Source: Calothrix anomala FACHB-343 (GTDB lineage Bacteria > Cyanobacteriota > Cyanobacteriia > Cyanobacteriales > Nostocaceae). Taken from it: a stretch of DNA of 35,204 nt. The notes beneath the pieces were generated by a model, which made no database searches, was not told the DNA's origin, and saw only the letters and a program-made list of their open reading frames with translations. Made by a program: the position numbers and the translations under genes. Positions 12,316 through 29,650 of the stretch are shown here, in pieces. Each line of letters starts with the position of its first letter. Position 1 is the first letter of the stretch. Location: assembly GCF_014696435.1 (NCBI RefSeq), contig NZ_JACJQG010000088.1:1-35204 (forward strand), written 5' to 3'.

Positions 12316-13167
12316 TTACCCTTCCAATACTTCAGTCAGCACAGTAGATGTCTCAACCACATCCCAAGGCGCTGGCTTGCGAATTTGTTCCCAAATTGGG
12401 CTGTAGAGCGCTTCATACAATTCCCGTGCCATTTCTACCATGCCTACATAACCTGCATAGGGATGGTGACGTTCTTGGTTAATATCTAGAAAGGGAATCC
12501 GGGCTTTGAGGGCGGTATATTGGTTACGTCCCCCAGCAATTAACATATCGGCGTTGGTATCTTTTACCAGTTGCAGCAATTCTTTGGCATTGCCTTTTTC
12601 TAGCATAATGCCTTCTGTGCCGAGTAATTTTCTAATCTTGGCTTTGTCTTCTTCCGTACTTTTGCGGGTGCTGGTGGCGACTACTTCGATACCCAAGTCT
12701 TTAGCTGCGGAAATAATTGACCAACTTTTGACACCGCCTGTATATAAGACAACGCGCTTGCCTTTGAGACGGGCGCGATAGGGAGCCAGAGCGATATCTA
12801 GGGCAGCTGTTTCTTCAGCAATCAGCTTTTCTGTACGCTCTTGTAAATCGGGATCTCCCAATTTAGCGGCAATATTTCGCAGACAACGGTTCATGTCATC
12901 GATGCCGTAAAAAGACTCTTCAATGTAAGGAATGCCGTAACGTTCCTCCATTTTTCTCGCCATGTTCAGCAATGCACGCGAGCAAATCATCACATTTAGC
13001 TTGGCGCGGTGAGCGTGTGTTATTTCTTGATAACGAGCATCACCTGTGATTTTTGATAAGACGCGGATACCTAATTTTTCCAACAGTGGCGTTACTCCCC
13101 ACATTTCGCCGGCGATGTTGTACTCGCCGATTAAGTTAATATCATAAGGTGTTGTATATTCCGGTTC
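12316..13167 (-). CDS. nifE: nifE, 3' part (NifE C-terminal 283 residues)
   Basis: The frame runs from the GGTTC junction (13163-13167) to the TAG/TAA stop at 12316 without an initiator of its own: [20 protein letters not shown] leads into [20 protein letters not shown]. It contains [20 protein letters not shown], the [16 protein letters not shown] segment and [20 protein letters not shown], all typical of NifE. Upstream of the junction the frame meets TGA at once, so there is no native start. Joined to the 5' part at 28161-28723, it gives a 469-residue NifE, the normal family size. Unless the intervening element is removed, this half cannot be made as part of NifE. Confidence 0.95.
13163..13167. 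other. Recombination core GGTTC, left end of the nifE element
   Basis: GGTTC occurs here and at 28161-28165 at the exact places where NifE coding identity begins and ends. Crossover within this repeat yields GCA GAA CCG GAA TAT in frame on the nif strand. Confidence 0.88.
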
Positions 13168-13493
13168 ACATCAACGCTTGGTGCAACATAAAAATTCAAA
13201 ATTCAAAATTCAAAATTCAAAATTGCTTTGATAGTTGCAATTAGCTTGAGCAGTAATTTATACGAGTTTATCTCTGCGGTGGATGAAAAGCAAGACAGGC
13301 GATCGCATTTCTACAGATACAGCTTCAGGTAAATGAGGTACGCGCTTTGGGGCATGGCAGTGCCAATGCCCCTACAATCAACGATTATCTGTACCTTACC
13401 AACTTGCAATTCGCTGTATGCAAAAAATATCGCCCTGCGGCTGCGCTCAGTCAACGCACCTTGAGCGCAGCCGTATACCCCTATGAATCATTC
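13168..13493. repeat. Left element end: STRR and dispersed repeat, no gene
   Basis: 13191-13224 is an AATTCAA heptamer tract. 13338-13403 is a copy of the 6885-6950 repeat, followed by GC-rich hairpin-like sequence to about 13480. I see no gene here. Confidence 0.75.
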
Positions 13494-16400
13494 TTATTTC
13501 ATAGGACGCCAATTACCAGAAGGAATAAAACTCGCCCAATAATAAGGATGTTGATATTGGGGATTATTGAGTAACTCTAATTGCACCTCGCGCAACGCTT
13601 CATGTCTACCCTTACCCGTTTGTAATTTCTCATAATATTTCACCATTAAATCTTTCGTACCATCATCAGCTACTTGCCATAAACTTAACAGTTGACTTTG
13701 AGAACCTGCAATTACCAAAGCACGCCGCAAGCCGTAAACACCGCCGCCTATTTTTACATCACCAAGCCCAGTTTCACAAGCAGATAATACTACTAATTCT
13801 GTACCCCGTAAATTTAAACCTGCAACTTCTAAAGCTGTCAGTACGCCATCTTCTGTATCATTTTTTTGTTGACGGTTATTAAAACCAGCCAAAGCTAAAC
13901 CAGAACGTAATAAGGGATTTTCTAAATTCAAAGCTGGGGCTGTTTCTAATTGCTGATTAACATTATTGTTTCGGGTTGGTACTGTTTTATCTGGTAAGAA
14001 AAAGCCGTGAGTAGCTAAATGTAAAATTCTGGGTGCGTTTAATTGTTTAATAGCTGCTTCTGTGGCTTGTTTTCCTAATAAAATATTTGTCTGGGGGACA
14101 ATCTTTTGAATTTGTTGTCCTTCGGCTAAAGTTGCTGTCAATCGGCTAACTGTTAAATTAGCAAAGTCAATAGAACGTTGATTTGACGAACTACGGGATT
14201 TAGCTGCAACTGCTGCAACGGTGATATCTTGTTGTTCGTAGTCGATATCTGCCAAGACTACAGGATTTGCGGCGGCTTTGGCTGTAGTTTGCAAGTTGAG
14301 TAAGTCTCGCCCAGTGGTGAGGTAAGAGAAAGCGTAACGTTGGACGAGATATTGATTTTGCTCATCCTTGAGGGCTTCAAAAGGTATTAAGTTTAACTGT
14401 CCATCTGGTGAAAGCAACAGGTGACGCGCATCGCCTAACAGGGGACGAATGGGAGCCATGACTTGCTCATCTAAGGCGCGTGAGGCTTTTTGGAGGCGGG
14501 ATACAGAAGTGTTGCTATCAACTGCTTCGGGTATAATTCCACCCCGTTCTGGGGAATTATTGTTACTTTCTTGACTAGATGCTGGAGCATAAACCAAAAC
14601 TTGACGGAAATTAGCAACAGATTGATCGATAGTTGCAGCATCACCCAAATCAACCCACTTCGGTTCCCCTGCAGCATGTAATACTACTGCTGCATAACGG
14701 GGTTTACCCCATCTTTCGCTGTCTTGTTTCGCTTTGGGATTGTATGGCTGATATTGGATAATTTCTACCATAGCTGCATCTGGGGGAATTTGAGCTTGGA
14801 TGGCGGCTAATTCTACTGGTTGAGTTGCTTGGCGGAATTCGGCGCTTTTAGCACTCACTTGTTCTTCTAGGCGTTCTTTTTCGGCTTCTAGTTGTTTAAT
14901 TTGGGCTTGGTAAACTGCAAACTTCTGTTGCCCCTGGCCGCGATATACTAGAGCAGCTAATTCTTGCTGCACGTTCAACCAATCATCAAACAGCTTTTTG
15001 GTTTGGGGGTTATTTGCTAACTGGGCGCGTAATGTCTGCACTGTGTCAGTCATCGCATCTAGTACCCTTCCTTTACGCCGCAGTACTGTAGTCAGGGCGA
15101 GTTTGGCTAATGTAGGGTTTTTAGTAGATTGTTGCAGCGCTAGAGCAACAACAGCGTCAGTTGTTACACTAAACTGTTGAGCGTAGTTTTGTTTTCTTTG
15201 TTCCGAACCTACAGCATAGATGAGTTGTAAATTTTGTTCTTCAATTGCCAATCCACGAGTGAGAAAATCGGTGCTGCGATTGATATCACCTTGCGCCCAA
15301 TGAAAAACTGCCAAATTATTCAAGCTAGTGGCGACATTGGGATGTTCTTTACCCAGTGTCTTCTCCCGAATCGCCAAGGAACGCAGATAAAGCGGTTCGG
15401 CTTTGGTATAATTTCCCTGTGATTGGTAAAATGCTGCTAAGTTGTTCAAGCTTTGGGCGACATCAGGATGTTCTTTACCCAGAATTTTTTCGCGAATAGC
15501 TAGAGAACGCAGGTACAGGGGTTCGACTTTGGCATAATTTCCCTGTAACCGATAGAATTCTGCTAAATTGTTCAAACTGAGTGCGACATCGGGATGTTCT
15601 TTACCCACGACTTTTTCTAAAATAGTCAGAGAGCGGAGGTATAAGGGTTCGGCTTGGGAATATTTCCCCTGTAATCTGTAAATTAGAGCTAAATTGTTTA
15701 AGCTAAGTGCAACATAGGCATGTTCTTTACCCAGTACTTTCTCGAAAATAGCCAGAGAACGGAGGTATAGCGGTTCGGCTTTAGCATAACTCCCCTGTAA
15801 CCGATAAAGTTCTGCTAAATTGTTGAGGCTAGTTGCTAAATTGGGATGTTCTTTACCCAGTAATTTCTCATACATAGCCAGAGAGCGGAGGTAAAGCGGT
15901 TCGGCTTTGGCATAATTCCCCTGTGACTGGTACAGTAGAGCTAAATTGTTCAAGCTAATGGCAACATTGGGATGTTCTTTACCCAGTAATTTCTCATACA
16001 TAGCCAAAGAACGGATGTACAGTGGTTCGGCTTGGGTATAGCTCCCCTGTTCCCGGTAAAGTTCTGCTAAATTGTTGAGGCTATTAGCTAAATCGGGATG
16101 TTCTTTAACACCTACTTTCTCGTAAATTGCTAGAGAGCGGAGGTAAAGCGGTTCGGCTTTGGTATAATTCCCCTGTGCGCGGTAAAGTTCTGCTAAATTG
16201 TTGAGGCTATTAGCTAAATTGGGGTGTTCGGTACCCAGTACTTTCTCCTGAATTGCGAGGGAACGCAGATAAAGGGATTCGGCTTTGGCATTATTTCCCT
16301 GTGACTGGTAGAGTGCTGCTAAGTTGTTTAAGCCTTGCGCGACTAGTGGATGTTCTTTACCTAAGACTTTCTCTCGAATTGCTAAGGCTTTTTCTGCCAG

Positions 16401-16631
16401 GGGGATGGCTTCACTATATTTGCCTTGACGATACAATTTTACTGCTTGTTGATTTAGTTCTTCAGCTTCGGCTAAGGCTGCGGATTGTTGTGCTGATAGT
16501 GGCGGTTGGGCTTGTCCCTTTGGTTGTGTGGGTATACTTACTAATAGTCCTAATGCTATTGCTGTGCTGATTGAGCATCTCAAGATATTTTGAGTTTTTT
16601 TTGCTACATTAAATAAATTTTGTCCGGACAT
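13494..16631 (-). CDS. TPR-CHAT protein 1 (caspase-like protease domain)
   Basis: The 1,045-residue protein starts with a probable signal or anchor segment (residues 19-36, ISTAIALGLLVSIPT). Nine nearly identical 42-residue kinesin-light-chain-type TPRs occupy residues 67-444, with a divergent tenth to about 486. A coiled coil follows (QIKQLEAEKERLEEQVSAKS), then a C-terminal CHAT domain from about 700. The catalytic dyad is intact: His875 in LHLATHGFF and Cys952 in VVLSACETGLGD. CHAT domains are caspase-family proteases common in multicellular cyanobacteria; TPRs sense partners. The substrate is unknown. It lies inside the nifE element, so it would be lost if the element is excised. Confidence 0.92.
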   Translation of the reverse strand: MSGQNLFNVAKKTQNILRCSISTAIALGLLVSIPTQPKGQAQPPLSAQQSAALAEAEELNQQAVKLYRQGKYSEAIPLAEKALAIREKVLGKEHPLVAQGLNNLAALYQSQGNNAKAESLYLRSLAIQEKVLGTEHPNLANSLNNLAELYRAQGNYTKAEPLYLRSLAIYEKVGVKEHPDLANSLNNLAELYREQGSYTQAEPLYIRSLAMYEKLLGKEHPNVAISLNNLALLYQSQGNYAKAEPLYLRSLAMYEKLLGKEHPNLATSLNNLAELYRLQGSYAKAEPLYLRSLAIFEKVLGKEHAYVALSLNNLALIYRLQGKYSQAEPLYLRSLTILEKVVGKEHPDVALSLNNLAEFYRLQGNYAKVEPLYLRSLAIREKILGKEHPDVAQSLNNLAAFYQSQGNYTKAEPLYLRSLAIREKTLGKEHPNVATSLNNLAVFHWAQGDINRSTDFLTRGLAIEEQNLQLIYAVGSEQRKQNYAQQFSVTTDAVVALALQQSTKNPTLAKLALTTVLRRKGRVLDAMTDTVQTLRAQLANNPQTKKLFDDWLNVQQELAALVYRGQGQQKFAVYQAQIKQLEAEKERLEEQVSAKSAEFRQATQPVELAAIQAQIPPDAAMVEIIQYQPYNPKAKQDSERWGKPRYAAVVLHAAGEPKWVDLGDAATIDQSVANFRQVLVYAPASSQESNNNSPERGGIIPEAVDSNTSVSRLQKASRALDEQVMAPIRPLLGDARHLLLSPDGQLNLIPFEALKDEQNQYLVQRYAFSYLTTGRDLLNLQTTAKAAANPVVLADIDYEQQDITVAAVAAKSRSSSNQRSIDFANLTVSRLTATLAEGQQIQKIVPQTNILLGKQATEAAIKQLNAPRILHLATHGFFLPDKTVPTRNNNVNQQLETAPALNLENPLLRSGLALAGFNNRQQKNDTEDGVLTALEVAGLNLRGTELVVLSACETGLGDVKIGGGVYGLRRALVIAGSQSQLLSLWQVADDGTKDLMVKYYEKLQTGKGRHEALREVQLELLNNPQYQHPYYWASFIPSGNWRPMK
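15300..16433. repeat. Nine tandem 126-bp repeats (TPR array)
   Basis: Each unit encodes 42 residues of the form YxxQGxYxKAEPLYLRSLAI, then EKxLGKEHPxVAxSLNNLAxL. Nucleotide similarity between units is high, so copy number may vary by recombination or be miscounted in short-read assemblies. Confidence 0.9.
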
Positions 16632-16974
16632 AAGAATTTGCTGAATCTGTTACTGCTGAGTTTTTCGGTGTTTCCATTACATATACTTCTGGGAAATGAA
16701 GAGTTATGCAGTTGAAGGACTAAAAATAACGCCCGCAGGCTGTAAGCCTTGGGCTATCGTTACCAATCCCACCTTTGTGGAGTGAGGTTGGGATTACAGG
16801 AGAGCGATCGCAATTACTCAATCAATTGTTCTTAGATAACTTTATTTTACGTATAATTACAGAGTTATTTACCTAAATTTTGTGAAAAAAATGAAATTTA
16901 TGTGATTTTCCCTGAGCCAAAATCCAGTTTGTTTAAGACAAGCTAACACAAGAATATTCATTAGGAGTACATCT
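16632..16974. other. Intergenic region between TPR-CHAT 1 and a + strand gene
   Basis: These 343 bases contain a hairpin repeat near 16765-16797 (AATCCCACCTTTGTGGAGTG then AGGTTGGGATT), HIP1 sites and an AT-rich stretch up to the ribosome site AGGAG at 16964. It presumably holds divergent promoters. Confidence 0.5.
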
Positions 16975-17337
16975 ATGCGTCAGAGACGTTCATCTCGCAT
17001 TCTCAAAAAAGCTCAACTCAGAGTATGGGGACTTCAAACTATTGACGCCAATCTCGATTTTGGTAATTCTCTGAGCTTGGAAAATCTGCGTCAACAAATT
17101 GATGATTTAGGTAATAAGCTGATGACTCATAACACGAATCTGGCGAGGATTCATGGTATGAAAATGGAGATTAAAACACTAGAAAAAAGCTTGAGTGCTT
17201 TGTGTGAAAGGATGCTGCTGGGAGTTGCTGTGAAATATGGTAAAGATAGCGAAGAGTATGCAATGGCTGGTGGTGTGCGCAAGCGCGATCGCGTCCGTAA
17301 ATGTACTATCAATAACCTCGAAGATGTGTCAGAATAA
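16975..17337 (+). CDS. Hypothetical basic, partly coiled-coil protein (120 aa)
   Basis: This 120-residue protein has a basic N-terminus (MRQRRSSRILKKAQLRVWGL), a helical middle (LENLRQQIDDLGNKLMTHNT) and a C-terminal ERMLLGVAVKYGKDSEEYAM-GGVRKRDRVR segment. A convincing AGGAG lies 7 bases before the ATG, so I take it as real. I recall similar unnamed proteins in cyanobacteria but no function. It is oriented opposite to the neighbouring - strand cargo. Confidence 0.75.
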   Translation: MRQRRSSRILKKAQLRVWGLQTIDANLDFGNSLSLENLRQQIDDLGNKLMTHNTNLARIHGMKMEIKTLEKSLSALCERMLLGVAVKYGKDSEEYAMAGGVRKRDRVRKCTINNLEDVSE

Positions 17338-17421
17338 ACATAGTTAGGGCATTGGGCATTGGGCATTGGTGGTTTTCCTCTGCCCGGCAGCTTAATGCTT
17401 AATAAGGTAAAAAGGCTATGA

Positions 17422-17778
17422 TTATCTTGGTAAGCATGGTATTTGCGTTATTTGCGTTATTTGCGGCTGGGATAGTAATGGTTTTAATTGCGGTTTGTTA
17501 AGCTGACAAAGGCTAATATAAGGAATATTTCTGGCGTTTTCTTGTTGACGAATGTGCTGTTGTTGCTCGTTTGTTAGATGTTGGATTCTATTGCAGAAGT
17601 TGTTGTTGCCATTATTGCATCTACGCTGTGCCTCATCCAAAAAATATCCGCTTACGGGTATTTCTCTTTGTTCTTGCGGAAAAACGCCTATATCTGCAAT
17701 TGCCTTCGTTTCTGATACAAGTAAGCAAGAGCTAAAAAATAAAACGGCTGTCATCAGTGTCTTTTTTGTAGCTATCAT
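17422..17778 (-). CDS. Small exported protein with signal peptide
   Basis: I start this gene at ATG 17778 rather than 17835: the upstream extension is dispersed-repeat sequence, while from 17778 the protein opens with a standard signal peptide (MIATKKTLMTAVLFFSSCLL, then VSETKA). The mature part is about 90 residues, rich in Gln and Asn, with three cysteines (RRCNNGNNNFCNRI and a later SLCQ), and ends with QPQITQITQIPCLPR. The function is unknown. It lies 67 bases downstream of the DUF4351 fragment on the same strand. Confidence 0.6.
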   Translation of the reverse strand: MIATKKTLMTAVLFFSSCLLVSETKAIADIGVFPQEQREIPVSGYFLDEAQRRCNNGNNNFCNRIQHLTNEQQQHIRQQENARNIPYISLCQLNKPQLKPLLSQPQITQITQIPCLPR

Positions 17779-17845
17779 CACAATTGTGCCTATTATTTGA
17801 TAGTGTAAAAGATACGTAGTAGCGTGGCACGCCACTACAATTATG

Positions 17846-18097
17846 TTAACCCGTTAGGCTTTGGATAAATTCGTCTAATGAATTGACAGCGATCGCTACA
17901 GCCATTAAATTTTCTAGTTGTTCTACGCTTTGATTCTCCAGATTGGCTTGTACTGACTGGGGAATTTCGCCAAACCGCAGCCGTAATACTTGGATCAACT
18001 GTCGCTGCGCACCTTGTTGTAAACCTTTTTGCTCTCCTTCGGTGAGAATTTCTTGATACCAAGGAGATTCGCGTAAAATAGACATATCCCACCTCAT
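17846..18097 (-). pseudogene. Truncated Rpn/DUF4351-type protein (C-terminal piece)
   Basis: The 83 residues match the C-terminal end of Rpn-family (PD-(D/E)XK, transposase-like) proteins: RESPWYQEILTEGEQKGLQQ, then QLIQVLRLRFGEIPQSVQANL and LENLMAVAIAVNSLDEFIQSL, the DUF4351 pattern. Full proteins are about 250-300 residues with an N-terminal nuclease domain, which is absent here. It may be a remnant or a stand-alone DUF4351 gene. Confidence 0.7.
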
Positions 18098-18173
18098 GAT
18101 TTGTTGACGGTTAACTGTTGACTGTTGACTGTAAAATATATGTAGGGTGGTTTTTAACTCTTATCAAGCTAAT

Positions 18174-19559
18174 TTATAATCCATTACCAATTAAAATAAA
18201 CGGTGCCCAGTAAAAAGGATGATTGAGATTTTCGCTGATTTGTGGTTGTTTGTTGTTAATGGTTGCATATTTCCCGGTAATTAAGGCGATTTGCGCTTGA
18301 CGTAGGGCTTCGGCTTTAGTTGTTTTGCCTTGTGCCATGATAGTATAGAAGGCATTCATCAAGGCTTGAGTACCACCGTCATCTACTGACCATAGGGTGG
18401 CGATCGCAGCTCTAGCACCGGTTTGTTGTATCTGGTAACCAAAACCGAGAATTTCTCTACCGTCGCCTAAGTAATCGCCTAAACCGGTTTCGCAGGCTGA
18501 AAGTACTACTAAATCGACGTTGGGTAAGCGCCAATTTTTAATATCTCTTAAGGTGGCGCGATCGCCGTTTCCAAATAAAATAAATGAGTCTTCTGGTTGT
18601 CCGCTAGTAAATGCAGCGTGAGTAGCTAAATGAACGACAGAATAATCGTTCATTTCTAGCACTATATCTTGATTAAATTGCCGGTCTAAGAGTTTTTTGG
18701 TGTGGGGAACGGTTTGTGCTAGGGTTTCGACTTCCACACCCGCGAAGGGTAAGCCGGAAAATTCAAACTTCTGAGAGCCGACTTCAACAGTATACTTACC
18801 TTCAGTAAAGGCTGCGGCTAACACATTTAACTGTGGCTGAGGTTTGGTGTTGAGGTCGGTTAAACTAACTGCTGTGATATTATTTATACCGAACCCTTGG
18901 ATTAGCCATTGTTGCCCATCATACAAAGCAGCTAAGGGAATATAACGCAGTTGTCCGTCGGGAGCGTAGATGATGGTTTTGGCTTTGGCTTGGGCTAGGT
19001 CGTTTTCTAGGGGCTTAACGAGCCAATTATAGAGCTTTTGGGCGGGAATTTTGGCGTTAGCGGTACGGTTGGGCAATACTGAACGAAACTCCGCAATTAC
19101 CCGGTTAAGCTCTGTTTGTTTAACTGCAACGGTGCGGCGAATTGGGGGTGCGTAGGGGGTGACTAATACCAATTCTAAGCGATCGCTTAAAACGAAGGGA
19201 TAGAGAATAACAGCATCTTGCTGAAGTTTTTTCAGGTTATCTTGCAAAGCGCTGGCGGAAGATTCTAAATTAAAGCTTTGTCCTTGGGTAGTTTGTTGAA
19301 GTTGAACAACCCATTCCCGCACCTTGGGACTTTCGAGGAAGTTGTTAAACTGTTTGGTAACTTCCTGCTGATTTTTCCGCAGTTCGAGGATACGCTGTTT
19401 TTGCGCTGGGGTGCGGTTGTTCACGTTAATGCTTTCGAGTTGCGCGAGTTCTTTACCAAATGCAATGGCTTTATCGATTTCTGCTGTCATTCCCTGACGA
19501 ATTTGCTGTTCTTGGGGAAGTTCGGTGACACCTTGCGCTGTATTATCGCTTCCGCGCAC
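18174..19559 (-). CDS. CHAT protease part of TPR-CHAT 2
   Basis: If translated alone, this part could begin at GTG 19559 (no good ribosome site) or at an ATG further in. The 461 residues start with linker helices, then the CHAT fold: IIYAPDGQLRYIPLAALYDG, the catalytic His in VVHLATHAAF (residue 314) and the catalytic Cys in VVLSACETGLGDY (residue 356), ending with HPFYWAPFILIGNGL. Both catalytic residues are intact, so the protease would be competent if made. No ribosome site supports separate expression; read-through or reinitiation would be needed. Confidence 0.7.
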   Translation of the reverse strand: MRGSDNTAQGVTELPQEQQIRQGMTAEIDKAIAFGKELAQLESINVNNRTPAQKQRILELRKNQQEVTKQFNNFLESPKVREWVVQLQQTTQGQSFNLESSASALQDNLKKLQQDAVILYPFVLSDRLELVLVTPYAPPIRRTVAVKQTELNRVIAEFRSVLPNRTANAKIPAQKLYNWLVKPLENDLAQAKAKTIIYAPDGQLRYIPLAALYDGQQWLIQGFGINNITAVSLTDLNTKPQPQLNVLAAAFTEGKYTVEVGSQKFEFSGLPFAGVEVETLAQTVPHTKKLLDRQFNQDIVLEMNDYSVVHLATHAAFTSGQPEDSFILFGNGDRATLRDIKNWRLPNVDLVVLSACETGLGDYLGDGREILGFGYQIQQTGARAAIATLWSVDDGGTQALMNAFYTIMAQGKTTKAEALRQAQIALITGKYATINNKQPQISENLNHPFYWAPFILIGNGL

Positions 19560-19631
19560 GTTGCGCAGATAATCTTCTAATTCTTGAACTTTGAGTAAAT
19601 CTAGTACCCGTTGCGCTTCTAAAACGCGGTT

Positions 19632-22600
19632 TTATTGGAGGAGAATATCAGCTAAATGGCGATAATCTTTGGCGATGGTTTCGGTGTAAGATTCTTGGTA
19701 TTCTTTGGGAAGTTCTCTGATATTTTGGCGAATGGCTTCTCTGGCATTAACTGACTGTTTAAAGAAGATAATTGCTAATTCTGGTTTATTTTGTTTTTCT
19801 AGTAAGTAACCGATACTATTGAGAACGATTCCCTCACCTTCTTTATTACCGATTTCTTGCGCAATGACTAAACTTTGCTGTAAGAATTTCCTAGCTAAAT
19901 CGTACTTTCCTTGCTCAAAGTAAACCTTACCAATATTATGGAGAATTACCCATTCTGAACGCTGAGAGTCGAATTGTTGATATGTGGTTAAAGCTGGTTG
20001 TAAAAAGTCTAAGGCTAATTGATATTTACCTTGTTTGAAGTAAACCAAGCCAATATTATTAAATGTTGTAGCTTCGAGCAATTTTTTTGCTTTTTCAGCA
20101 TCAACTTTTTTGACAACTGTTAAAGCCTGACGATGGTAATCTAATGCTAAATCATACTTTTCTTGTTTGTAATGGATATTTCCGATAGCATTGAGGGCGT
20201 TAACTTCTCCTCTAAAGTCACCAATAATATCGCCGTTGCTGGCAATTAAAGTAGGTCTTCTCGCAGTTTTTAAAGCATCATTATAGTATTTGACAGCGAG
20301 TTCATACTGTCCTAGTTTTTGGTAAATTCTGCCGATGTTAAACTCAATTCCTACCCAATCTCCTAAGATTTCGTTACGAATTGGTAAGGCTTGGTGATAG
20401 TAATCTAAAGCTAATTTATATTCTCCCAAACTGCTGTAAGCGATTGCCATTTGGTTGAAAGCTCGGAATTTTGTTTCCTGCTGACCGAGTTTTGTAGTAA
20501 TATCTACTACTTGCTGATATTTCTCTATAGCTTGGCGATATTGTCCTTTGCGAGAAAGTTCTCCTCCTTGCTGATAGTAAATATTGCCAATAGCATTGAG
20601 ACTAGCTTTTTCGTTGGATGTATCGCCTATTTCTTTGTAAAGGGATAAAGCTTGCTGATAATATTTTAATGCTTGCTGCTCATTCTTTTGGCGGTTGTAA
20701 ACTTCTCCTAGTTCATAAAAACAGTTAGCGATTTTGGCTTTATCTCCTAGCTGCTGATAAATTGCTAAAGCTGCTTCAAAGGTTTTTATCGCTCTAGAAT
20801 ATTCCTGATTTCTGGATTGTCTCTTACCTTCTTGAAATAAGCGATCGCCTTTAAGTTTATCTGGTGTCTGCGAAAAAAATATGACTCCACCTTCTGATTT
20901 AAAAGTCGTAACCTTACCGGATGCAAACTGAATTTTTACTTCTTGATAATTTACCGCACCACTCAGAGGAGGTTTACTGAGGAGAGTTGCTTGATTATTG
21001 GCGCTTTTCACAATTTCTTGTTTAATCGCCAAAGCTTGTTGAGATGCAGCTAAAGCGGCTGAAGTTTGTCCTAACTTTTCGTAAACTAATCCCATTTGCG
21101 TGAGAATTACCGCTTCCCAAGGACGATTTTTTTGCTGGCGGACAATTGCTAAAGCTTTTTGGTAAGATTGCAAAGCAAATTGATATTTTTCTTGCAGGTA
21201 TTGTCCTTGAGAAGTGTAACTATTTCCCGTCGCAAATAGCGCAACAGCGTCACCTTCTAGCCTATGGATTTGCACCAGTGGTTTTTTGCTTTCATCTCTC
21301 CCAACTTCTGTAATCAGGATGGCTTGTTTACCAGCGATTTCTTCTGTAGTATTGTTAGTAATTTCCTGCTTAAATACAACTGCTTGCTGACGATATGATT
21401 CTGCGGCTTGGGGTTGTCCTAGCTTGTCGTAAATTGTGGCGATACTTTTGAGAATTGCTTCGTGATTTGGCTGAAATTCCGCAATTCTATAGCGGCGAAA
21501 ATATTCCGATTTCCCATACTGACGCCAGAGAAATTCTGCTGAAGAAAGGGAACTTTGATATTGAGAGTCACGCGCGATCGCCAATGATTTCTGATAAGCT
21601 TCTAAAGCAGCAGGGTATTGTCCTAAATTTTCGTAAGCTTTCCCAATCTGCATGAGCAAATGCGGTACTTGGATAGCAAGATGATTAGGACTATTTGACT
21701 GACTTGCGATCGCCAGCAATTCCTGGTAAACCTGTAAAGCAGCTTGATGTTGTCCCAATGCGGCGTAAGTTGCTCCCATGCTGCGTTTAATTCGCTGTTC
21801 CTGCTGATTCTCAGAACCTTGGAAGATTTCTCTGCGCTCAGTTTCTTTATTTTCCATCTCTGCGCGGAGAATTGTTAAAGCTTCCTTGTAGGAATCCAAC
21901 GCATTTTGATATTGTTGGAGTGCTTGGTAGATATCCCCTATATTAGTCAGGGTATCTTCCTCTTCATTTTCCGCAAAACTTTCCCAAGACGCAGTTCCCA
22001 CGACTACCTGGAGTCTTTGTCCCCGTTTCTCCATTGCAGAGATCTCTTCAGGAGTCTTAAAAGTTTCAACTGTAGTAATCGCCTGAGTAATCGGTTCTCC
22101 TGAACCTACCTTAATTAAACCATTACTAATGGCATCTGTGAGTTTAATTCCCTCTGTAGAATCAACATTGACTTTTGTACCGTATGCTACGCGAATAGTA
22201 TCAGGTATTGGCGCTTTTGCTGCTTCTTCCCCCACCTCGCGCCTCATTGCTAGACTTTGCTGGTAATGCTGGAAAGCGACTCGCAACAATCCCTGGATTT
22301 CGTACATTCTCCCCATCTGATTGAGAATTACCCATTCCCAAGGACGATTTTTTTGCTGGCGGACAATTGCCAAGGCTTGCTGATAAGATTCTAAAGCAGC
22401 TTGATATCTTCCTTGGAATGCGTGCGCGTCACCATTTCTATAATGAGTTAAGGCTTCTCCTTCGAGGAAAGTAATTAAAGTTGGTCTTTTGTTGGGTGTA
22501 TGATAAGTAACTAGAATTCCTTGTTTGACAATGTGCGTCGGCCAGAAAAGATGGATACCCATATCTCGCCTAATCGCTAATGCTTGTTCTTGATATTCCT

Positions 22601-23768
22601 GTGCGGTTTGCGGCTCTCCCTTATCAAAGTAGTAAATATAGCCAATACTATTCAGTATCTTTTCTTCCAAAAAGCGATCGCCTATTTGTCGCACTACAGG
22701 TAAAGCTTGTTTAAAATAATCTAGCGCTGCTTCCGGCTGTTTGCGTCCTTCGTTTTTATAAGTAAATCCCATCGCAGTCAGGATTTTCGCTTCCAAAGGA
22801 CGATGCTGAATTTCTCGCGCTATATTTAAAGCTTGTTCGTAGAAATCCAGAGAAATCGGTCGAGCATCCCTTTGTGGATCTACTTTCCAATTGTAATCTT
22901 TCCCCAAATTAAAGATAACAGTTGCTTCCCCAGAGCGATCGCCTACTTCACGCATCTTTGTCAAAGCTTGCTTGTAAAAATCTAAAGCTTCTTCCTTGTT
23001 ACCCAAAGCGCCGTAACTCATACCAATACCGTTGAGACTCCAGGCTTCCCCCGCATCGTTACCCACAAAACGCATAATGGCTAAGGCTTTCTCGTAATAC
23101 TTGAGAACATCGTTATACGGCTTAATTTCTTCTGGTTTCTTAATTTTCTGGTAGTAAAGCTGCAACTGAATATAACTTAAATAAGTATTTCCCAACCCAA
23201 TCAGCGTATTTGCTTCCCCAACTTTATCCCGCACAGTACGCCGAATTAATAAAGCTTCCTGGTAATATTTCAGCGCAGTTTCATACTTGCCTTGAGTTTC
23301 GTAAACTGCGGCGATATTATGCAAAGATACGCCTTCCCCAGGAAGATTACTCAATTCCCGGAAAATTGCTAAAGCTTGTTCGTGCTGCTTCAGCGCCGTT
23401 TGCGTTTCCCCCAGATTGCGGTAAACTTCTCCCAGCTTGTTGAGAGTTTCAGCTTCGGGAATACGTATAATAGAGCGATCGCTAACTTGGCGATAAATTT
23501 CTAATGCTGTTTGCAAAGACTCCAACGCAGCAGCGAATTGACTAGTCTGTAGCTGTTTGCTCCCCACCGTAAAAAACTGATCCGCTTTCGTTTTCGTCGG
23601 GTTAGGGGTTTGAGCTAACACCTGGGTATTTGCAACTACTTGCGCCGTTAAAACTGAATCTTCAGCCAAGCCAAAGCTTACCAATCCGCCATCAAGAAAA
23701 AAAGTAGCCAAGCAAGTAGTCAGCGCAGTCAATCCCACTCTTGGGGTTAGCATCAAGAAATTCCCCAT
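19632..23768 (-). CDS. TPR part of TPR-CHAT 2 (1,378 aa)
   Basis: A probable signal peptide (about residues 8-36, GLTALTTCLATFFLDGGLVS) is followed by roughly 30 tetratricopeptide repeats of the form LGxVYxxLGQxxxALxxYxQAL over almost the whole length, less uniform than those in TPR-CHAT 1. The two halves of the array look partly duplicated (KNRPWEWVILNQMGRMYEIQ against KNRPWEAVILTQMGLVYEKL). It ends at the in-frame TAA after HLADILLQ, just before the linker to the CHAT domain, so if termination is efficient the product is a TPR-only protein that could still bind partners. The ATG is at 23768. Confidence 0.85.
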   Translation of the reverse strand: MGNFLMLTPRVGLTALTTCLATFFLDGGLVSFGLAEDSVLTAQVVANTQVLAQTPNPTKTKADQFFTVGSKQLQTSQFAAALESLQTALEIYRQVSDRSIIRIPEAETLNKLGEVYRNLGETQTALKQHEQALAIFRELSNLPGEGVSLHNIAAVYETQGKYETALKYYQEALLIRRTVRDKVGEANTLIGLGNTYLSYIQLQLYYQKIKKPEEIKPYNDVLKYYEKALAIMRFVGNDAGEAWSLNGIGMSYGALGNKEEALDFYKQALTKMREVGDRSGEATVIFNLGKDYNWKVDPQRDARPISLDFYEQALNIAREIQHRPLEAKILTAMGFTYKNEGRKQPEAALDYFKQALPVVRQIGDRFLEEKILNSIGYIYYFDKGEPQTAQEYQEQALAIRRDMGIHLFWPTHIVKQGILVTYHTPNKRPTLITFLEGEALTHYRNGDAHAFQGRYQAALESYQQALAIVRQQKNRPWEWVILNQMGRMYEIQGLLRVAFQHYQQSLAMRREVGEEAAKAPIPDTIRVAYGTKVNVDSTEGIKLTDAISNGLIKVGSGEPITQAITTVETFKTPEEISAMEKRGQRLQVVVGTASWESFAENEEEDTLTNIGDIYQALQQYQNALDSYKEALTILRAEMENKETERREIFQGSENQQEQRIKRSMGATYAALGQHQAALQVYQELLAIASQSNSPNHLAIQVPHLLMQIGKAYENLGQYPAALEAYQKSLAIARDSQYQSSLSSAEFLWRQYGKSEYFRRYRIAEFQPNHEAILKSIATIYDKLGQPQAAESYRQQAVVFKQEITNNTTEEIAGKQAILITEVGRDESKKPLVQIHRLEGDAVALFATGNSYTSQGQYLQEKYQFALQSYQKALAIVRQQKNRPWEAVILTQMGLVYEKLGQTSAALAASQQALAIKQEIVKSANNQATLLSKPPLSGAVNYQEVKIQFASGKVTTFKSEGGVIFFSQTPDKLKGDRLFQEGKRQSRNQEYSRAIKTFEAALAIYQQLGDKAKIANCFYELGEVYNRQKNEQQALKYYQQALSLYKEIGDTSNEKASLNAIGNIYYQQGGELSRKGQYRQAIEKYQQVVDITTKLGQQETKFRAFNQMAIAYSSLGEYKLALDYYHQALPIRNEILGDWVGIEFNIGRIYQKLGQYELAVKYYNDALKTARRPTLIASNGDIIGDFRGEVNALNAIGNIHYKQEKYDLALDYHRQALTVVKKVDAEKAKKLLEATTFNNIGLVYFKQGKYQLALDFLQPALTTYQQFDSQRSEWVILHNIGKVYFEQGKYDLARKFLQQSLVIAQEIGNKEGEGIVLNSIGYLLEKQNKPELAIIFFKQSVNAREAIRQNIRELPKEYQESYTETIAKDYRHLADILLQ

Positions 23769-23904
23769 TTTTGTTAACCAGACTTATCAGTTTTAACAAT
23801 AAAATATTCATTAATAGCAGCTAGCATTACGAAAAAATACATAATTATTGATACAGGCTCGACAAGATATGTCAGTAGTATTATGATGAGTCTATTAACT
23901 TGAT

Positions 23905-24107
23905 GTTTGGCAAATCGAAGCGGGGGCGAAAACCCTATAGGTTCTGCCAAAATCCCCAGAACCTTGACAAGTGAATAATTTCAGCGTTTCGAGAATTGGA
24001 GCAGATGCAAATTATTTGCAATAAGGTGGGCTGAAATTGATTAAATTTTTCGATCTGCCAAAATGCTTCTCAGGATGCTTGCTGTGGTTAGGTTTCAATA
24101 CCCAGCT
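23905..24107 (+). promoter_or_regulatory. CRISPR leader region
   Basis: This is the AT-rich, gene-free stretch directly upstream of the first repeat. It contains TTTGGCAAATCGAAGCGGGG and GATCTGCCAAAATGC, which resemble conserved pieces of cyanobacterial CRISPR leaders as I recall them. The degenerate repeat at the other end agrees with the leader being on this side. A GGTTCT/AGAACC hairpin lies at 23941-23963. Confidence 0.65.
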
Positions 24108-24952
24108 GTTTCCGCAACCAATTACCCCGCAAGGGGATTGAAACTTGAAGATCTTTGCTTTGGAGAGTAGAGATATAGGTTTCCGCAACCAATTACCCCG
24201 CAAGGGGATTGAAACCAATGGAGTACCAAGGAACTGCACAAATGTCTATATGTTTCCGCAACCAATTACCCCGCAAGGGGATTGAAACAAACTCTTTAAG
24301 ATACCCTCTGACTAAATCAAAAGCAGTTTCCGCAACCAATTACCCCGCAAGGGGATTGAAACATTAACTGCTATGACTCCCTGCTTTAATTCCTGTAGTT
24401 TCCGCAACCAATTACCCCGCAAGGGGATTGAAACCAATCTGGCGAAGATAAAACTAATTGAATCTCTGCGACGTTTCCGCAACCAATTACCCCGCAAGGG
24501 GATTGAAACCAATCTGTCCATGCTGAACGCCCTCAGAAAGTCTGAGTTTCCGCAACCAATTACCCCGCAAGGGGATTGAAACATACGCAAAAACTACCTA
24601 ACAGGTAAGCGTGTTACGTTTCCGCAACCAATTACCCCGCAAGGGGATTGAAACCTCTCACCAAAGAAGCAACTGCCAAACAGCAGGGATTAGGTTTCCG
24701 CAACCAATTACCCCGCAAGGGGATTGAAACCTCCGCCGGATACGGTTATATCTAAATCGTCATCAAGTTTCCGCAACCAATTACCCCGCAAGGGGATTGA
24801 AACGCCTATAATCAAGGTTTAGACACCCCAGAATATTCTAGTTTCCGCAACCAATTACCCCGCAAGGGGATTGAAACAAAATCTATTTCTGAATACATCA
24901 GCCGCCAAGAATTAAGTTTCCGCAACCAATTACCCCGCAAGGGGATTAAAAC
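24108..24952 (+). CRISPR. CRISPR array, 12 repeats of 37 bp, 11 spacers of 34-39 bp
   Basis: Repeats start at 24108, 24179, 24252, 24326, 24398, 24473, 24546, 24618, 24694, 24767, 24841 and 24916. The unit begins GTTTCCGCAACCAATTA, then CCCCGCAAGGGG (4-bp stem with a GCAA GNRA-type loop), and ends ATTGAAAC, the 8-base handle usual for type I and III crRNAs. Eleven copies look identical; the last has ATTAAAAC, marking the trailer end. Spacers are 34, 36, 37, 35, 38, 36, 35, 39, 36, 37 and 38 bp. No cas genes occur in the window. The repeat resembles cyanobacterial type I-D or III repeats; I cannot decide which. Confidence 0.98.
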
Positions 24953-25004
24953 AATACATTGGCTAAACAAGAAATGACTAACGCTCAAGGAAAAGAAAAA
25001 TAAA

Positions 25005-25083
25005 TGTAGGTTGGGTTGAACGGAGTGAAACCCAACAATACCAAAGTTTTCGCGTTGGGTTTCGTTCCTCAACCCAACCTACA
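25005..25083. repeat. 79-bp imperfect inverted repeat (MITE-like)
   Basis: TGTAGGTTGGGTTGA at the left end pairs with TCAACCCAACCTACA at the right end, with a second paired block (GTGAAACCCAAC and GTTGGGTTTCG) inside. It is typical of small dispersed palindromes in cyanobacterial genomes. Confidence 0.8.
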
Positions 25084-25224
25084 GCTACATTGGTAAAAGC
25101 CTTGAAAAATAAGCGGTTTGAGATTTTTATTTGGTGAGAGTGATTAAAGAGGATTAAAAAGAGCGATCGCAATTACGATAAATATTATTTTTGATAGCAT
25201 TTTCCGACATAGTAACATATACCC

Positions 25225-25260
25225 GTAGGGGCATGGCACTGCCATGCCCTCTACAATATA
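25225..25260. repeat. GTAGGGGCATGGCA palindromic repeat, copy inside the nifE element
   Basis: GGGCATGGCA and TGCCATGCCC surround a one-base centre. 31655-31690 is nearly identical over 36 bases, and 6786-6849 is a related longer form. Confidence 0.8.
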
Positions 25261-25495
25261 TTGATATGTCGCTGTTGCGTGTTGTGACAAAGCATGTAAA
25301 TCTATGTTTAGTAATATTACTGAAAATATCAAGGCTTTACTAAAGCGTTACATCAGAAAAATTGGGTAGTAACTGGGTAGTAATTGGGTAGTTTTACCCT
25401 ATATAACCACCGGAGATTGATCCATAATAATTGATATAAATCATCGCTGGCAACCACATTTAAAGCTAGCATTTAGTAAATCTTGCGATAGACCG

Positions 25496-25525
25496 AAACC
25501 CTGAGACAAAACTCAGGGTTTTTTA
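25496..25525 (+). terminator. Rho-independent terminator
   Basis: ACCCTGAG and CTCAGGGT form a stem around ACAAAA, followed by TTTTT. No gene ends immediately upstream on the + strand, so it may close a CRISPR transcript or a lost gene. Confidence 0.75.
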
Positions 25526-25705
25526 AATTTATTTATCAGTCTTAATCCGTAAATTGACTCACAACCTCTGATGCGCGATTAAGCAATGAAAGAGCGATCG
25601 CCTGTTACAGGAAAAATTAACTGAGAATTGCTGTTGTAGAATCTTGATAGTATTTTATATAACAAGTATACCTAACTTTATTTTTAACCAGCAGCCGCAA
25701 GCTTG

Positions 25706-26182
25706 ATGAAATTACTACCCTACGATAGCTTTACGATTGTCGTACCTCAACCACTATCTGTGGTTTTGCAACGGCTAAATGCAAAAGTTGAAGCACCAAA
25801 ACTATATAGATTCTCTAGAGAACACGCGCCTTATCAAGGAACTGTTTCTGAGCAAGGGTTTCAAATTACGCGGATTATTCACTATCGCAACTCGTTTTTA
25901 CCAGTGATTAAAGGACGCTTTCAAATCGAGTCTTCTTATCAAACAGAAGTACATATAAAAATGAGCCTACATCCTTTTGTCATGGCGTTTTTAGGATTTT
26001 GGTTTTTCTTTTGGTATAGTGCAACCATTCCTATCAGTTTAGTAGGTTCTATGCCGAATGGAATGCCAATATTATTTTTAGGAATGCCGATATTAATGTT
26101 GATTATATTTTGGTTTGCCTTTTGGAATGAAGCAAATCGCAGTCGCAATGAATTGACGCAAATTATCCAGGGAGAATTATAG
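25706..26182 (+). CDS. Hypothetical two-helix membrane protein
   Basis: I start at ATG 25706, one codon after the TTG that also opens the frame. The protein has 158 residues: a soluble N-terminal part (about residues 1-90, with YQGTVSEQGFQITRIIHYRN) and two membrane helices (about 92-112, FVMAFLGFWFFFWYSATIPI, and 120-140, MPILFLGMPILMLIIFWFAF), ending in a charged tail. I do not recognise a named family; similar proteins are scattered in cyanobacteria. It lies within the nifE element and is oriented against the recombinase. Confidence 0.75.
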   Translation: MKLLPYDSFTIVVPQPLSVVLQRLNAKVEAPKLYRFSREHAPYQGTVSEQGFQITRIIHYRNSFLPVIKGRFQIESSYQTEVHIKMSLHPFVMAFLGFWFFFWYSATIPISLVGSMPNGMPILFLGMPILMLIIFWFAFWNEANRSRNELTQIIQGEL

Positions 26183-26572
26183 GTTGTCAGTTCTAAGAGT
26201 TAGAAGACTACTGCGCTTCAGTGAATTTATGTAAGAAAATATTAGGAATTACGCACAAAACCTCTCTAACTCTAATTTCTCTGTGAACTCTGTCTTGAAA
26301 AGTTCAGATCGGCGGAAACCGCCGCTCCGACTTTTCGCTGTGTTCTCTGCGGTTCATTTCTTCATGATCTTTACGTAAGTCCTGAATCTATGATTTGTAT
26401 GACGCATTGGTGCGTTGCGCTGCGCGACAACACACCCTACATATACTGAAATCTTCTTTAATTTTGAATTTTGAATTTTGAATTTTGAATTGTTAATATT
26501 CTTAAGTCGTTCGCTATTAACAGAAAAATTCTGCATAACAAATAAGCTAAAAATAGCGCTACAGAATGTTTT
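26183..26572. other. Gene-free region with repeats
   Basis: It contains a perfect CGGCGG-AAA-CCGCCG hairpin (26310-26324), the GGTGCGTTGCGCTGCGCGAC repeat (26409-26442) shared with 6966-6999, and a TTTTGAA heptamer tract (26459-26491). No gene is seen. Confidence 0.7.
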
Positions 26573-26839
26573 ATGACTTCAACACATTCTCAAAAAGTCC
26601 TAAAAATGATTGAGGATAAATTACTGGAAGCTTATGCAAGATACTACGGGGACTTGAATGTTGGAGATATGTCTCCGGAAGAATTCGTTAACACCTACGG
26701 ACGCATTGAAGATAGGGTTAATGGTAATTTAAACTTAGGCGCGATCGCACCTGATGAATCAACCTCTACTTTCTCGACAAACTCAGCTAAAGCGGATCGC
26801 AATTCAGAATCATCCAAAGATTCCCAAAATGTCGCCTGA
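26573..26839 (+). CDS. Possible small protein converging on the recombinase
   Basis: The frame of 88 residues opens with MTSTHSQKVLKMIEDKLLEA, followed by GDMSPEEFVNTYGRIEDRVN, which looks like genuine soluble protein sequence. Its last 145 bases overlap the 3' end of the recombinase gene on the other strand. There is no strong ribosome site. The overlap region is low in complexity (Ser, Asn, Asp), so only the first half is persuasive. Function unknown; an excision accessory role is speculation based on position. Confidence 0.4.
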   Translation: MTSTHSQKVLKMIEDKLLEAYARYYGDLNVGDMSPEEFVNTYGRIEDRVNGNLNLGAIAPDESTSTFSTNSAKADRNSESSKDSQNVA

Positions 26840-28101
26840 GATGCGATCGCAATTTTCCGTTTAGCATTCTCAAAAGCATCCTTATCAACTATTCTTGTGG
26901 GCGTTGATAGGGTGCTAATTGTTACCTCAATTTTGGCGATCGCTTCAATAATATCTGGGTTAGAACTGCGTAACCCCCGCAAAACAGATAATTCGTTGGT
27001 TAAGTTTTCAATTTCTTTGGTGTTGATTATCTCCATTGTGGTTGACTGGCTTTGTAAATAGCCAATTAAATTGGGTGCATTGTCACATAAAGCCGCGATC
27101 GTCTGGGCGATGATTTCCCGCAATCGCGGACATTTGGCATTATCGCAATGATACTTACCAGGTTTGTTGTAGTTAACACAGCGTATATACTCGACTTTCG
27201 TTTTGTGGCGGGAAAAGTTGCGATACATACTTCCGCCACAATGAACGCATTTAATTAAACCTGCGAGTGGATATTCACCACGGGTAGATGTGGCGGAACT
27301 GCGATACTTTTTATTTGCTAATAATTTATTTTGAATTGCGGCTACGGTATCTGCGGTAATTAAAGCTGGGTGGGTGTTGAAGTTAATAATAGGTTCCCGA
27401 TTTACACCTGGCTTTTTTTTGACAAAATAAGCCGTATGTCCTTGTAATGCGGGATTTTTCACCCAATCTCGCAACCCAGCGACGCTAAACACTACCTCAT
27501 ATTCCTGGTAAATATAATTGCAGACATCCTTAAGCGATCGCATCGACAAAGTTAAATCAATAATTATCTTAGCTAGCTCAAAGTAAGTTTTACCTGATTT
27601 CTCGTGAATCTGATAATTCGGCGTTAATCGCTGATTTTCGTCTTTACTATAGCCAAAGGGCGGTACGCAATACTTTAATTGCTGGCGAAAATAATTATTA
27701 CCATGTTTAATCCTCTGAGATAACAGCCGCGATTCAAATTCCGCCAAACCAGACATTTGATTAATACTAAACCAGCCAAAGGGCGAATTTGGGTCAACTG
27801 GTGCATCCAATATCCGCAGATTGACGTTATGCTTAACGAAAATATCAATCGCTTTGTGAATCGCAATTACACTGCGCCCTAAACGATCCACACGAGTGAT
27901 AATAATTTCATCAACTTGATTGTGCTGCGCCAACTTCAGCAACTCGTTATACTGTTTTCTCCCATCATTGCGTCCCGATTCTATATCTATTAAAACTTCC
28001 GTTGCACCCGCCGCTTTTAATCTCGCTATTTGCTGATTTAAGGCGTCAAACTCCTCAGCTTGTTCTTGCGTACTCACGCGGGCGTAACCGTAAACTCTCA
28101 T
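26695..28101 (-). CDS. Large serine recombinase of the nifE element (XisF-like)
   Basis: The 468-residue enzyme has an N-terminal resolvase domain with catalytic Ser10 (MRVYGYARVSTQEQ) and the arginine motif ITRVDRLGRS (Arg70, Arg73), a recombinase domain around residues 160-250, a zinc ribbon (LIKCVHCGGSMYRNF and a later CDNAKC) near 290-340, and a C-terminal coiled coil. This is the layout of XisF, which excises the fdxN element in Anabaena heterocysts. It starts 64 bp from the GGTTC core, so it very probably catalyses excision of this element. Its last residues overlap the small + strand frame at 26573-26839. Confidence 0.93.
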   Translation of the reverse strand: MRVYGYARVSTQEQAEEFDALNQQIARLKAAGATEVLIDIESGRNDGRKQYNELLKLAQHNQVDEIIITRVDRLGRSVIAIHKAIDIFVKHNVNLRILDAPVDPNSPFGWFSINQMSGLAEFESRLLSQRIKHGNNYFRQQLKYCVPPFGYSKDENQRLTPNYQIHEKSGKTYFELAKIIIDLTLSMRSLKDVCNYIYQEYEVVFSVAGLRDWVKNPALQGHTAYFVKKKPGVNREPIINFNTHPALITADTVAAIQNKLLANKKYRSSATSTRGEYPLAGLIKCVHCGGSMYRNFSRHKTKVEYIRCVNYNKPGKYHCDNAKCPRLREIIAQTIAALCDNAPNLIGYLQSQSTTMEIINTKEIENLTNELSVLRGLRSSNPDIIEAIAKIEVTISTLSTPTRIVDKDAFENAKRKIAIASQATFWESLDDSELRSALAEFVEKVEVDSSGAIAPKFKLPLTLSSMRP

Positions 28102-28156
28102 GGGAATTTATCTAAATCAGTCTCCAAATCATATCACAAAGGTGTTGTTGTAAGTG

Positions 28157-28723
28157 CTATGGTTCTGCTGTACCTACTACATATTCCAACAAAGCTTCGC
28201 CACCAAAGCGGTTACCCAGGTTTTTACTGCCAATAAATCCGGGCGCAATCACCGGAATCACAGGAGTTCCTAATTTTTCCGCCGCAGTTTTGCACACAGC
28301 ATCCATATCATCGCCAATTAAAGCTGTGACGCAGGTAGCGTAAACAAAGATAGCTGCTGGATTATAACGTTTATGTATTTCCGCGATCGCTTTATAGAGT
28401 TTCTTCTCGCCACCAAAAATGACATCATTTTCAGTTAAGTCAGTGGTAAACCCCGTTTTGTAAAGCATGGGGCCTGAAGAGAGACTACCACGACTACCCC
28501 AGGAATTACCAGCGCAAGCGATCGGCCCGTGGACTAAATGAGCAGCATCCGTAATGGGTACCAGAGCAATCATCGCCCCATCAAACGCGCAACCGCCTTG
28601 AGCTGCTCCCGGTTGTGCTTGTTGGGTACAAGATTTATTTTTCTTTTCGCTCTGTTTGTGCTGATTATGTTCGCATCCTGACTCACTAAGCAGCTCGTTG
28701 ATTTTACCTTGGGTGATTTTCAT
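28157..28723 (-). CDS. nifE: nifE, 5' part (NifE N-terminal 187 residues)
   Basis: The real ATG lies at 28723. The N-terminal half contains the ligand-type cysteines of NifE: Cys45 (GGCAFDGA), Cys70 ([15 protein letters not shown]) and Cys131 ([12 protein letters not shown]). The unexcised frame ends GTAEP and then TAG (28157-28159), one codon past the junction. Native coding stops at the GGTTC core 28161-28165. A Cys/His-containing stretch ([19 protein letters not shown]) precedes the conserved part. In vegetative cells only a 188-residue fragment can be made from this gene. Confidence 0.96.
28161..28165. other. Recombination core GGTTC, right end of the nifE element
   Basis: This is the partner of the 13163-13167 core. 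On the recombinase-sense strand it reads GAACC, 64 bases upstream of the recombinase ATG. Confidence 0.88.
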
Positions 28724-29389: not shown

Positions 29390-29650
29390 CTAACGAACTA
29401 AGTCGTAGGAAATATCGGTCTTAGAAGGAATGTTAGTACGTTGATCGATGTCCTCGAAGATTGTATTAACAACCCAGTTGAGGAGGTTAATTACACCTTG
29501 GTAACCGATGGTGCTGTAGCGGTGCAAGTGGTGACGATCCATGATAGGATAGCCGATTCTCACTAAGGGTACCTTGCAATCGCGCCATAGGTACTTACCG
29601 TAGGAGTTACCGATTAACAAATCAACTGGTTCGGTGAACAACAGAGAACT
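29390..29650 (-). CDS. nifK: nifK, 3' end (NifK C-terminal about 87 residues)
   Basis: SLLFTEPVDLLIGNSYGKYL, RDCKVPLVRIGYPIMDRHHL and HRYSTIGYQGVINLLNWVVN, ending KTDISYDLVR, are the C-terminus of the MoFe protein beta subunit. In recalled NifK sequences SLLFTEPVD is preceded by KDLWHFR; here it is preceded by unrelated residues (ILPDSQRIS), and the recombinase gene begins at once on the other strand. Coding identity therefore ends near 29645-29650, the proposed insertion junction. The other 5/6 of nifK lies outside the window. The product can only be complete after excision of the interrupting DNA. Confidence 0.93.
   Translation of the reverse strand, partial: SSLLFTEPVDLLIGNSYGKYLWRDCKVPLVRIGYPIMDRHHLHRYSTIGYQGVINLLNWVVNTIFEDIDQRTNIPSKTDISYDLVR

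Follow-up and report, generated by a model that had tools for sequence, protein, structure and literature searches.

The window analyzed here is the complete 35,204-nt contig NZ_JACJQG010000088.1 (C132) of the cyanobacterium Calothrix anomala FACHB-343, in which an orphan array of clustered regularly interspaced short palindromic repeats (CRISPR), consisting of a leader, repeats and spacers without cas genes, lies inside an interruption element of the nitrogenase gene nifE. We consider it reasonably likely that this array is a passenger in the nifE element and that heterocyst elements are a tolerated harbor for CRISPR-Cas systems. The explanation starts from the array and its leader, the boundaries of the element, the rejoined nifE frame, an orthologous array in a relative and the recurrence of CRISPR loci in other elements; it supposes that the element would be excised, that CRISPR RNAs (crRNAs) would be produced from the array and that the elements would act as a harbor.

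The array comprises 12 copies of the 37-bp repeat GTTTCCGCAACCAATTACCCCGCAAGGGGATTGAAAC at 24108-24952, with a start-to-start spacing of 71–76 bp, exactly where an earlier sequence-only reading had placed twelve 37-bp repeats and 11 distinct spacers inside a nifE insertion. Eleven copies are exact, and the twelfth has a single G to A change; the 11 spacers are 34–39 nt long, and no two are alike. The repeat pattern, searched with up to 3 mismatches, occurs in the 9.24-Mb genome 12 times on the forward strand and never on the reverse strand, and a reversed control pattern gave no match, so the array is not a chance pattern. Among 388 genomes drawn from the order, the pattern was found in one, which is the genome of this strain, and a repeat form two bases shorter matched 4 of 218 genomes of the family, every one of the same genus. 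With repeats of constant length, unique spacers of similar length, a leader at one end and a degenerate repeat at the other, the CRISPR array is real. The degenerate terminal repeat suggests the old end of the array. Because the leader at the left is shared with related arrays and the right repeat is degenerate, the array is probably read on the plus strand, with its right end old.

As shown in Table 1, the array is placed between the two halves of nifE, which lies on the minus strand. The halves match the NCBIfam nifE profile (TIGR01283) at positions 2–188 (N-half) and 213–459 (C-half) of 459, each alone scoring under the whole-protein cut-off. Joining the flanks at the GAACC core gives a 469-aa NifE, which shares 83.6% identity across 456 aa with the intact NifE of Calothrix NIES-4105, and sequence resembling that beside the N-half core is present in the 12 other nifE elements compared. 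The predicted circle is ~15.0 kb, and a 468-aa serine recombinase, which has no internal stop, is encoded just inside the element at ~60 bp from the core. Heterocyst interruption elements were described by Hilton, Meeks and Zehr in 2016 (PMC4874684), whose table lists two nifE elements belonging to a single variant. The window element resembles those of that paper in its direct-repeat cores and in the intact gene obtained upon joining. It is an interruption element by the splitting of a gene used in heterocysts, by the flanking direct repeats and restoration of the gene, and by the site-specific recombinase near one of its ends. The serine recombinase is probably the excisionase of the element, and the element is probably removed from nifE during the making of nitrogen-fixing cells, as far as can be judged from the sequence.

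Table 1. Features of the nifE region in the window.
Feature	Position	Strand	Basis
CRISPR array, 12 repeats / 11 spacers	24108..24952	+	repeat and spacer search
Terminal degenerate repeat (one G to A)	24916..24952	+	repeat search
Leader, ~250 bp	23857..24107	+	similarity to stretches before related arrays
nifE interruption element, ~15.0 kb between cores	13168..28160	.	
Attachment core GAACC, end of nifE N-half	28161..28165	-	core comparison
Attachment core GAACC, start of nifE C-half	13163..13167	-	core comparison
nifE N-terminal half as listed; runs into the element to a stop past the core	28157..28723	-	
nifE C-terminal half from the core (ATG-listed open reading frame 12316-13104)	12316..13167	-	
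Large serine recombinase (Resolvase, Recombinase, zinc-ribbon domains), 468 aa	26695..28101	-	
159-aa protein without Pfam match, also present in the NIES-22 element	25703..26182	+	
Large TPR-repeat protein, divergent from the array; DNA unmatched in the NIES-22 element	19632..23768	-	
CHAT-domain protein in the element	18174..19559	-	
TPR-CHAT protein in the element	13494..16631	-	

A Pfam scan of nine of the ten open reading frames of at least 90 aa in the element (the tenth lies inside the array) found no cas gene, which rules out a cognate cas gene among them. A CRISPR-associated transposon was also rejected, with neither a transposase nor a Cas gene in the nine frames and a recombinase of the serine type. 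Otherwise, the cargo is a large TPR gene, a pair of CHAT-domain genes and small genes that lack a Pfam match. The two CHAT-domain genes and the gene of the 1378-aa TPR protein adjoin the array (13494-23768); TPR-CHAT proteases partner type III-E CRISPR systems, and TPR-CHAT genes are common in cyanobacteria. Further along the window, at 29390-31252, a second element splits nifK: an XisF-type recombinase of 520 aa lies beside the nifK C-half (NCBIfam nifK, profile 428–516 of 516), and the nifK N-half is on contig C57.

A search with the window recombinase gave 19 loci, 17 of which are nifE-type loci of other genomes (L011-L027), and the recombinase is found at an identity of at least 88% in six of the nine genomes of the genus. 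One of these loci (L011) belongs to Calothrix brevissima NIES-22, which is ~96% identical across most of the nif region and has a nifE element of ~6.3 kb at the same place as the window element. The NIES-22 element holds three repeats of the same array and a truncated fourth, with two full spacers, none of which is in common with the window array; it has no leader and no TPR and CHAT genes, all of which were probably lost by deletion. The sequence-only reading would have taken the absence of arrays from all related elements, together with a lack of transcription of this array, as a sign of chance insertion; the first half of this does not hold, since NIES-22, the nearest relative, carries this array in the orthologous element. 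Most simply, the array would be older than the split from NIES-22, one lineage having retained it while it decayed in the other.

The sequence-only reading, which is confirmed as to the array and supported in part as to its interpretation, had also suggested that the element may spread the array horizontally as a defense cargo. Stated more generally, the element would be a mobile integrative element carrying CRISPR defense among strains, with the conserved nif core as the integration site, which we regard as unlikely. Large serine recombinases can both integrate and excise, which would allow such movement. Against it, among the genomes searched, the array with this exact repeat was found only in the genome of the strain itself and at the orthologous site of its nearest relative, which fits vertical descent.

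In several relatives, the two halves of nifE are arranged differently. In Calothrix parasitica NIES-267 (L021, 9131-11404), the nifE recombinase is divergent and lies beside the C-half, not the N-half, and the element seems flipped. In N. carneum NIES-2107 (G413, 1917140-1933015) and in G414 (6650120-6671347), a block of xisE, the nifE N-half, the nifK C-half and xisK has the opposite orientation to the nifE C-half and, in both genomes, also to the nifK N-half; G359 and G415 show the same inversion against the nifE C-half in the parts read, and the nifE halves are on opposite strands in G396 and G400 too. Recombination at the nifK sites would invert the block and bring the nifE sites into direct, excisable orientation, that is, a programmed inversion followed by excision. 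In PMC4874684, seven opposite-strand cases were judged likely mis-assemblies; the agreement of four genomes of one genus argues against this for the inverted block.

The leader connects the window array to a dispersed family. In a comparison restricted to the sequence before the repeat, the leader is 83% identical to the stretch preceding arrays of N. carneum NIES-2107 (L061) and G414 (L063) and 76% identical to that preceding a second array of NIES-22 (L062), and in all three the similarity extends to the first repeat. These orphan arrays are related to the window array in repeat, leader and spacer sizes, with CCCCGCAAGGGG hairpins and spacers of their own, but they differ in their neighbors, among which the scan showed no nif gene: L061 and L063 lie next to an aldehyde dehydrogenase gene and L062 next to a mechanosensitive channel gene. 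Scanning ten neighbors revealed no effector or adaptation gene. The window array is, on these comparisons, a member of a leader-repeat family scattered through the genus. Since the place of the family differs from species to species, its arrays do move within genomes, which counts in favor of the mobile-element explanation. Next to the NIES-22 second array is a WYL-domain gene, and PADLOC lists genes of this kind with CRISPR loci as well; a reverse transcriptase of a group II intron, with an HNH domain (L062, 11208-12944), lies 0.9 kb away from the array.

The crRNAs of the orphan array, whose element showed no cas gene among the frames scanned, would be made in trans by Cas proteins encoded elsewhere in the genome. 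The genome has Cas6 on contigs C79 and C55 and a single Cas1, on C55. The C79 locus (12284-22928) is type III-D by PADLOC, with Cas10, a Csx10-type Cas5, Csm3, CARF-RelE and Csx21; its Cas6 is at 25407-26555, and of its own array only two partial repeats are left, near C79:23617-23706. The C55 locus is type I-D, its Cas10d and Csc2 being 47% and 70% identical, respectively, to PADLOC-named I-D proteins of L193, and there is no xis gene on C55 among the recombinase matches listed. The window repeat has its last 20 bases, including the hairpin, the same but for one as the arrays of the III-D loci of NIES-22 and G414, from which its 5' half and its leader differ. The III-D locus arrays of relatives share the hairpin, which makes the Cas6 encoded at the III-D locus the leading candidate crRNA processor for the window array. 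The idea that the window array is the only intact one of its hairpin family in the genome was rejected, as the arrays on C104 (16 repeats) and C106 (5 repeats) have the same 3' repeat half. The III-D locus itself lies just outside a coxA element and adjoins coxB in NIES-22 (L088/L089), in the strain itself (L085, C79) and in G414 (L095); the neighboring CoxB is named for NIES-22.

The surroundings of other element recombinases were surveyed for CRISPR loci. The first survey covered 80 stretches around XisF-type recombinases in 20 genomes, drawn from the matches listed, and comprised 868 kb of 3' sequence and 307 kb of 5' sequence; in 14 of the 80, the 3' part was shorter than 3 kb. Left out were the recombinase matches of group 42-451, whose frames of ~430–450 aa are by eye unlike element recombinases. 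The 3' side was taken as the element interior on the basis of the orientations in PMC4874684, which names one exception. True arrays were found on the 3' side of three stretches (L151, L162 and L168) and on the 5' side of one (L172), and cas genes on the 3' side of L151 and L145. The L162 array adjoins a gene fragment (NCBIfam flavorubredoxin, Pfam metallo-beta-lactamase fold), which we take to be flv3B with the help of the gene list of PMC4874684. The L168 array is in the nifD element of G414, whose nifD N-half would be in the 2-kb gap between L179 and L168. Candidates in L016, L018, L068, L132, L137, L202 and L151:1-346 were rejected as arrays, since they look like tandem repeats with a share of unique spacer words of 0.00–0.26, and two 3-copy clusters in L198 were not counted separately.

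The second sample was chosen by the recombinase alone. The nifK type, at an identity of at least 73%, was found in 39 of 218 genomes of the family, and 20 new 3' sides were read (326 kb, one of them only 2 kb). Arrays together with cas genes were present in five of the 20 (G442, G441, G380, G445 and G353), all of genus g28; with NIES-4105 (G443, L151) added, arrays, effector genes and Cas1 are present in all six nifK elements of this genus, the seventh g28 genome, G444, not being among the 68 genomes matched at E 1e-60. In each of the six, the nifK N-half follows past the cas genes and is oriented as expected of an excisable element, with spans of ~28–65 kb; this enclosure rests on coordinates and on L203, which shows the nifK N-half of NIES-4105 adjoining nifD. 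PADLOC assigned the NIES-4105 system to type I-B (Cas8b, Cas7b and Cas5b with Cas3, Cas6, Cas4 and Cas1), the G442 system to type I-D (Cas3d, Cas10d, Csc2, Csc1, Cas6, Cas4 and Cas1) and the G353 system to type I-D with a different Cas10d, and those of G441, G380 and G445 are I-D by similarity only. Some of the loci are incomplete: a frame shift divides Cas1 in G353, and no Cas6 match was obtained in G353 or G445. With I-B in NIES-4105 and I-D in the other g28 elements, the position is kept while the effector changes. The occupation of the nifK elements of one genus by different effector modules would also suit a mobile element, although such an exchange can also arise by recombination within a resident element. 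In G434, type III cas genes lie between xisK and the nifK N-half without an array, and its Cas10 is short (468 aa vs 772).

Six further recombinases (own C79, C120 and C107, NIES-22 at 700 kb, N. carneum at 1979 kb and G414 at 110 kb) were examined separately, as a biased choice in which four were taken because Cas6 was nearby, and two of the six have CRISPR-Cas on the 3' side. The nifH of N. carneum NIES-2107 is split after about residue 47, and its halves, ~35 kb apart, enclose an I-D operon and two arrays, one of 43 and one of 8 repeats; this enclosure rests on two reading frames. The coxA of NIES-22 is also split, and joining at TCTCT gives a 557-aa CoxA across 39.8 kb that contains an I-D operon and a 21-repeat array. 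Arrays or cas genes are thus present in nifK, nifH, nifD, coxA and flv3B-like elements of other Nostocales, and CRISPR is recurrent in such elements. For three genomes, those of N. carneum, NIES-22 and G380, a single Cas1 was found, and it sits in an element. It is conceivable, and we suggest it tentatively, that developmentally excised elements give CRISPR-Cas a standing home in heterocyst-forming cyanobacteria, which in some species would take the only spacer-acquisition module off the chromosome of the terminal cell and divide immunity as between germ line and soma.

The recurrence has to be compared with what chance would produce. If orphan arrays are many in Nostocales, one may have fallen into a dispensable stretch, and the link with excision would be meaningless; we regard this as rather unlikely. 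The Cas1 background counts 62 matches, fragments among them, in 21 genomes totaling ~192 Mb, and it includes the genomes with hits, which if anything raises it. The 1.19 Mb of surveyed 3' sides has six Cas1 genes against 0.38 expected, all six being of one genus and therefore one lineage. When the nifH and coxA cases are added, there are eight in three lineages, and three lineages against 0.45 expected corresponds to p = 0.011, with the reservation that these two cases were chosen because Cas6 lay near, so two of the three Cas1 lineages are not blind finds. Six array lineages including nifE, coxA and nifH against 2.0 expected similarly give p = 0.017, with nifE given beforehand and two chosen. 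The Cas1 counts, and the genomes whose only Cas1 is in an element, speak against chance.

Other results weigh against the explanation of the array as a passenger in a CRISPR harbor or in favor of chance. At ~1.4 arrays per Mb in two Nostoc genomes (quotient computed here from Table 2 of PMC5987646), a 15-kb element has a ~2% chance of holding an array. The eight array stretches in the 1.19 Mb of 3' sides reduce to only three lineages against 1.7 expected (p = 0.24), and the 5' sides, with one array (L172) in 307 kb, are not significantly poorer than the 3' sides, with eight array loci in 1.19 Mb (one-sided p = 0.42). The reading of the nifE-type loci L011-L027 took in 135 kb on the 3' side of the recombinase, beyond which several of the elements continue; 16 of the 17 have no array in the part covered, the NIES-22 locus being the only positive, and further stretches of some of these loci (L064-L084) gave none. 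The window leader resembles the leaders of the III-D arrays over 22–25 bp only, so an identity of the two was rejected. The spacers gave no clear target: the array had two weak matches to phages (E 0.9 and 3), exact 23- or 24-mers of 8 of the 11 spacers were absent from viral_contigs, all 11 had no match in the 2.89 Mb of fetched DNA with up to 7 substitutions, and a plasmid search gave no match assignable to any spacer. Enrichment in the elements is therefore not proven for arrays, and it is only suggestive for cas genes after lineage collapse.

A further alternative is that removal is itself the function, that is, CRISPR is taken out of the heterocyst to silence immunity there, e.g., to avoid its cost or self-damage. 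The presence of the only Cas1 in an element in three genomes and the cargo in six of six g28 nifK elements would accord with it. However, most survey stretches are without CRISPR (arrays in 3 of 80 and 5 of 20), the strain retains other arrays on other contigs, and excised circles may stay expressed; we consider it quite improbable.

Returning to the passenger explanation, the array would have passed down with the element from a time earlier than the split from C. brevissima NIES-22, with the leader kept in C. anomala. In vegetative cells, it would be an ordinary chromosomal immune memory. When a heterocyst forms, the recombinase would join nifE and free the array on a circle without descendants. 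Heterocysts do not divide, and excised circles can persist in them for a time. Because of this persistence, “deleted” may be too strong a word for the array in heterocysts, where immunity may be fading rather than vanishing. The elements would persist by descent because excision repairs the gene, and their contents would be tolerated. CRISPR inside them would be passed on by vegetative cells and be off the chromosome in heterocysts, so that genes in heterocyst elements could persist in the reproducing lineage without harm to the nitrogen-fixing cell.

The main text of PMC4874684, as distinct from its supplements, does not contain the word CRISPR; the paper describes a gene content that varies, in which a TEFG paralog is the special cargo. 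The window element carries a CRISPR array instead, and elements of relatives carry cas genes too. A literature search, with supplements and most subscription papers outside its scope, found no paper tying CRISPR to heterocyst elements. In Anabaena sp. 90 (PMC3542288), a type I-D system, as in the nifK element of G442, is on plasmid B and the excision elements are described separately, whereas here I-D systems are inside nif or cox elements. The programmed DNA loss of heterocysts is long known, but no benefit of the element contents is agreed on, which PMC4874684 calls a mystery. If CRISPR-Cas is a recurrent cargo, the elements would gain a plausible advantage, the defense of the reproducing cells, and bacterial immunity would be made cell-type specific through DNA deletion. 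Part of the immune memory of these cyanobacteria may thus be programmed to leave the chromosome in terminal cells.
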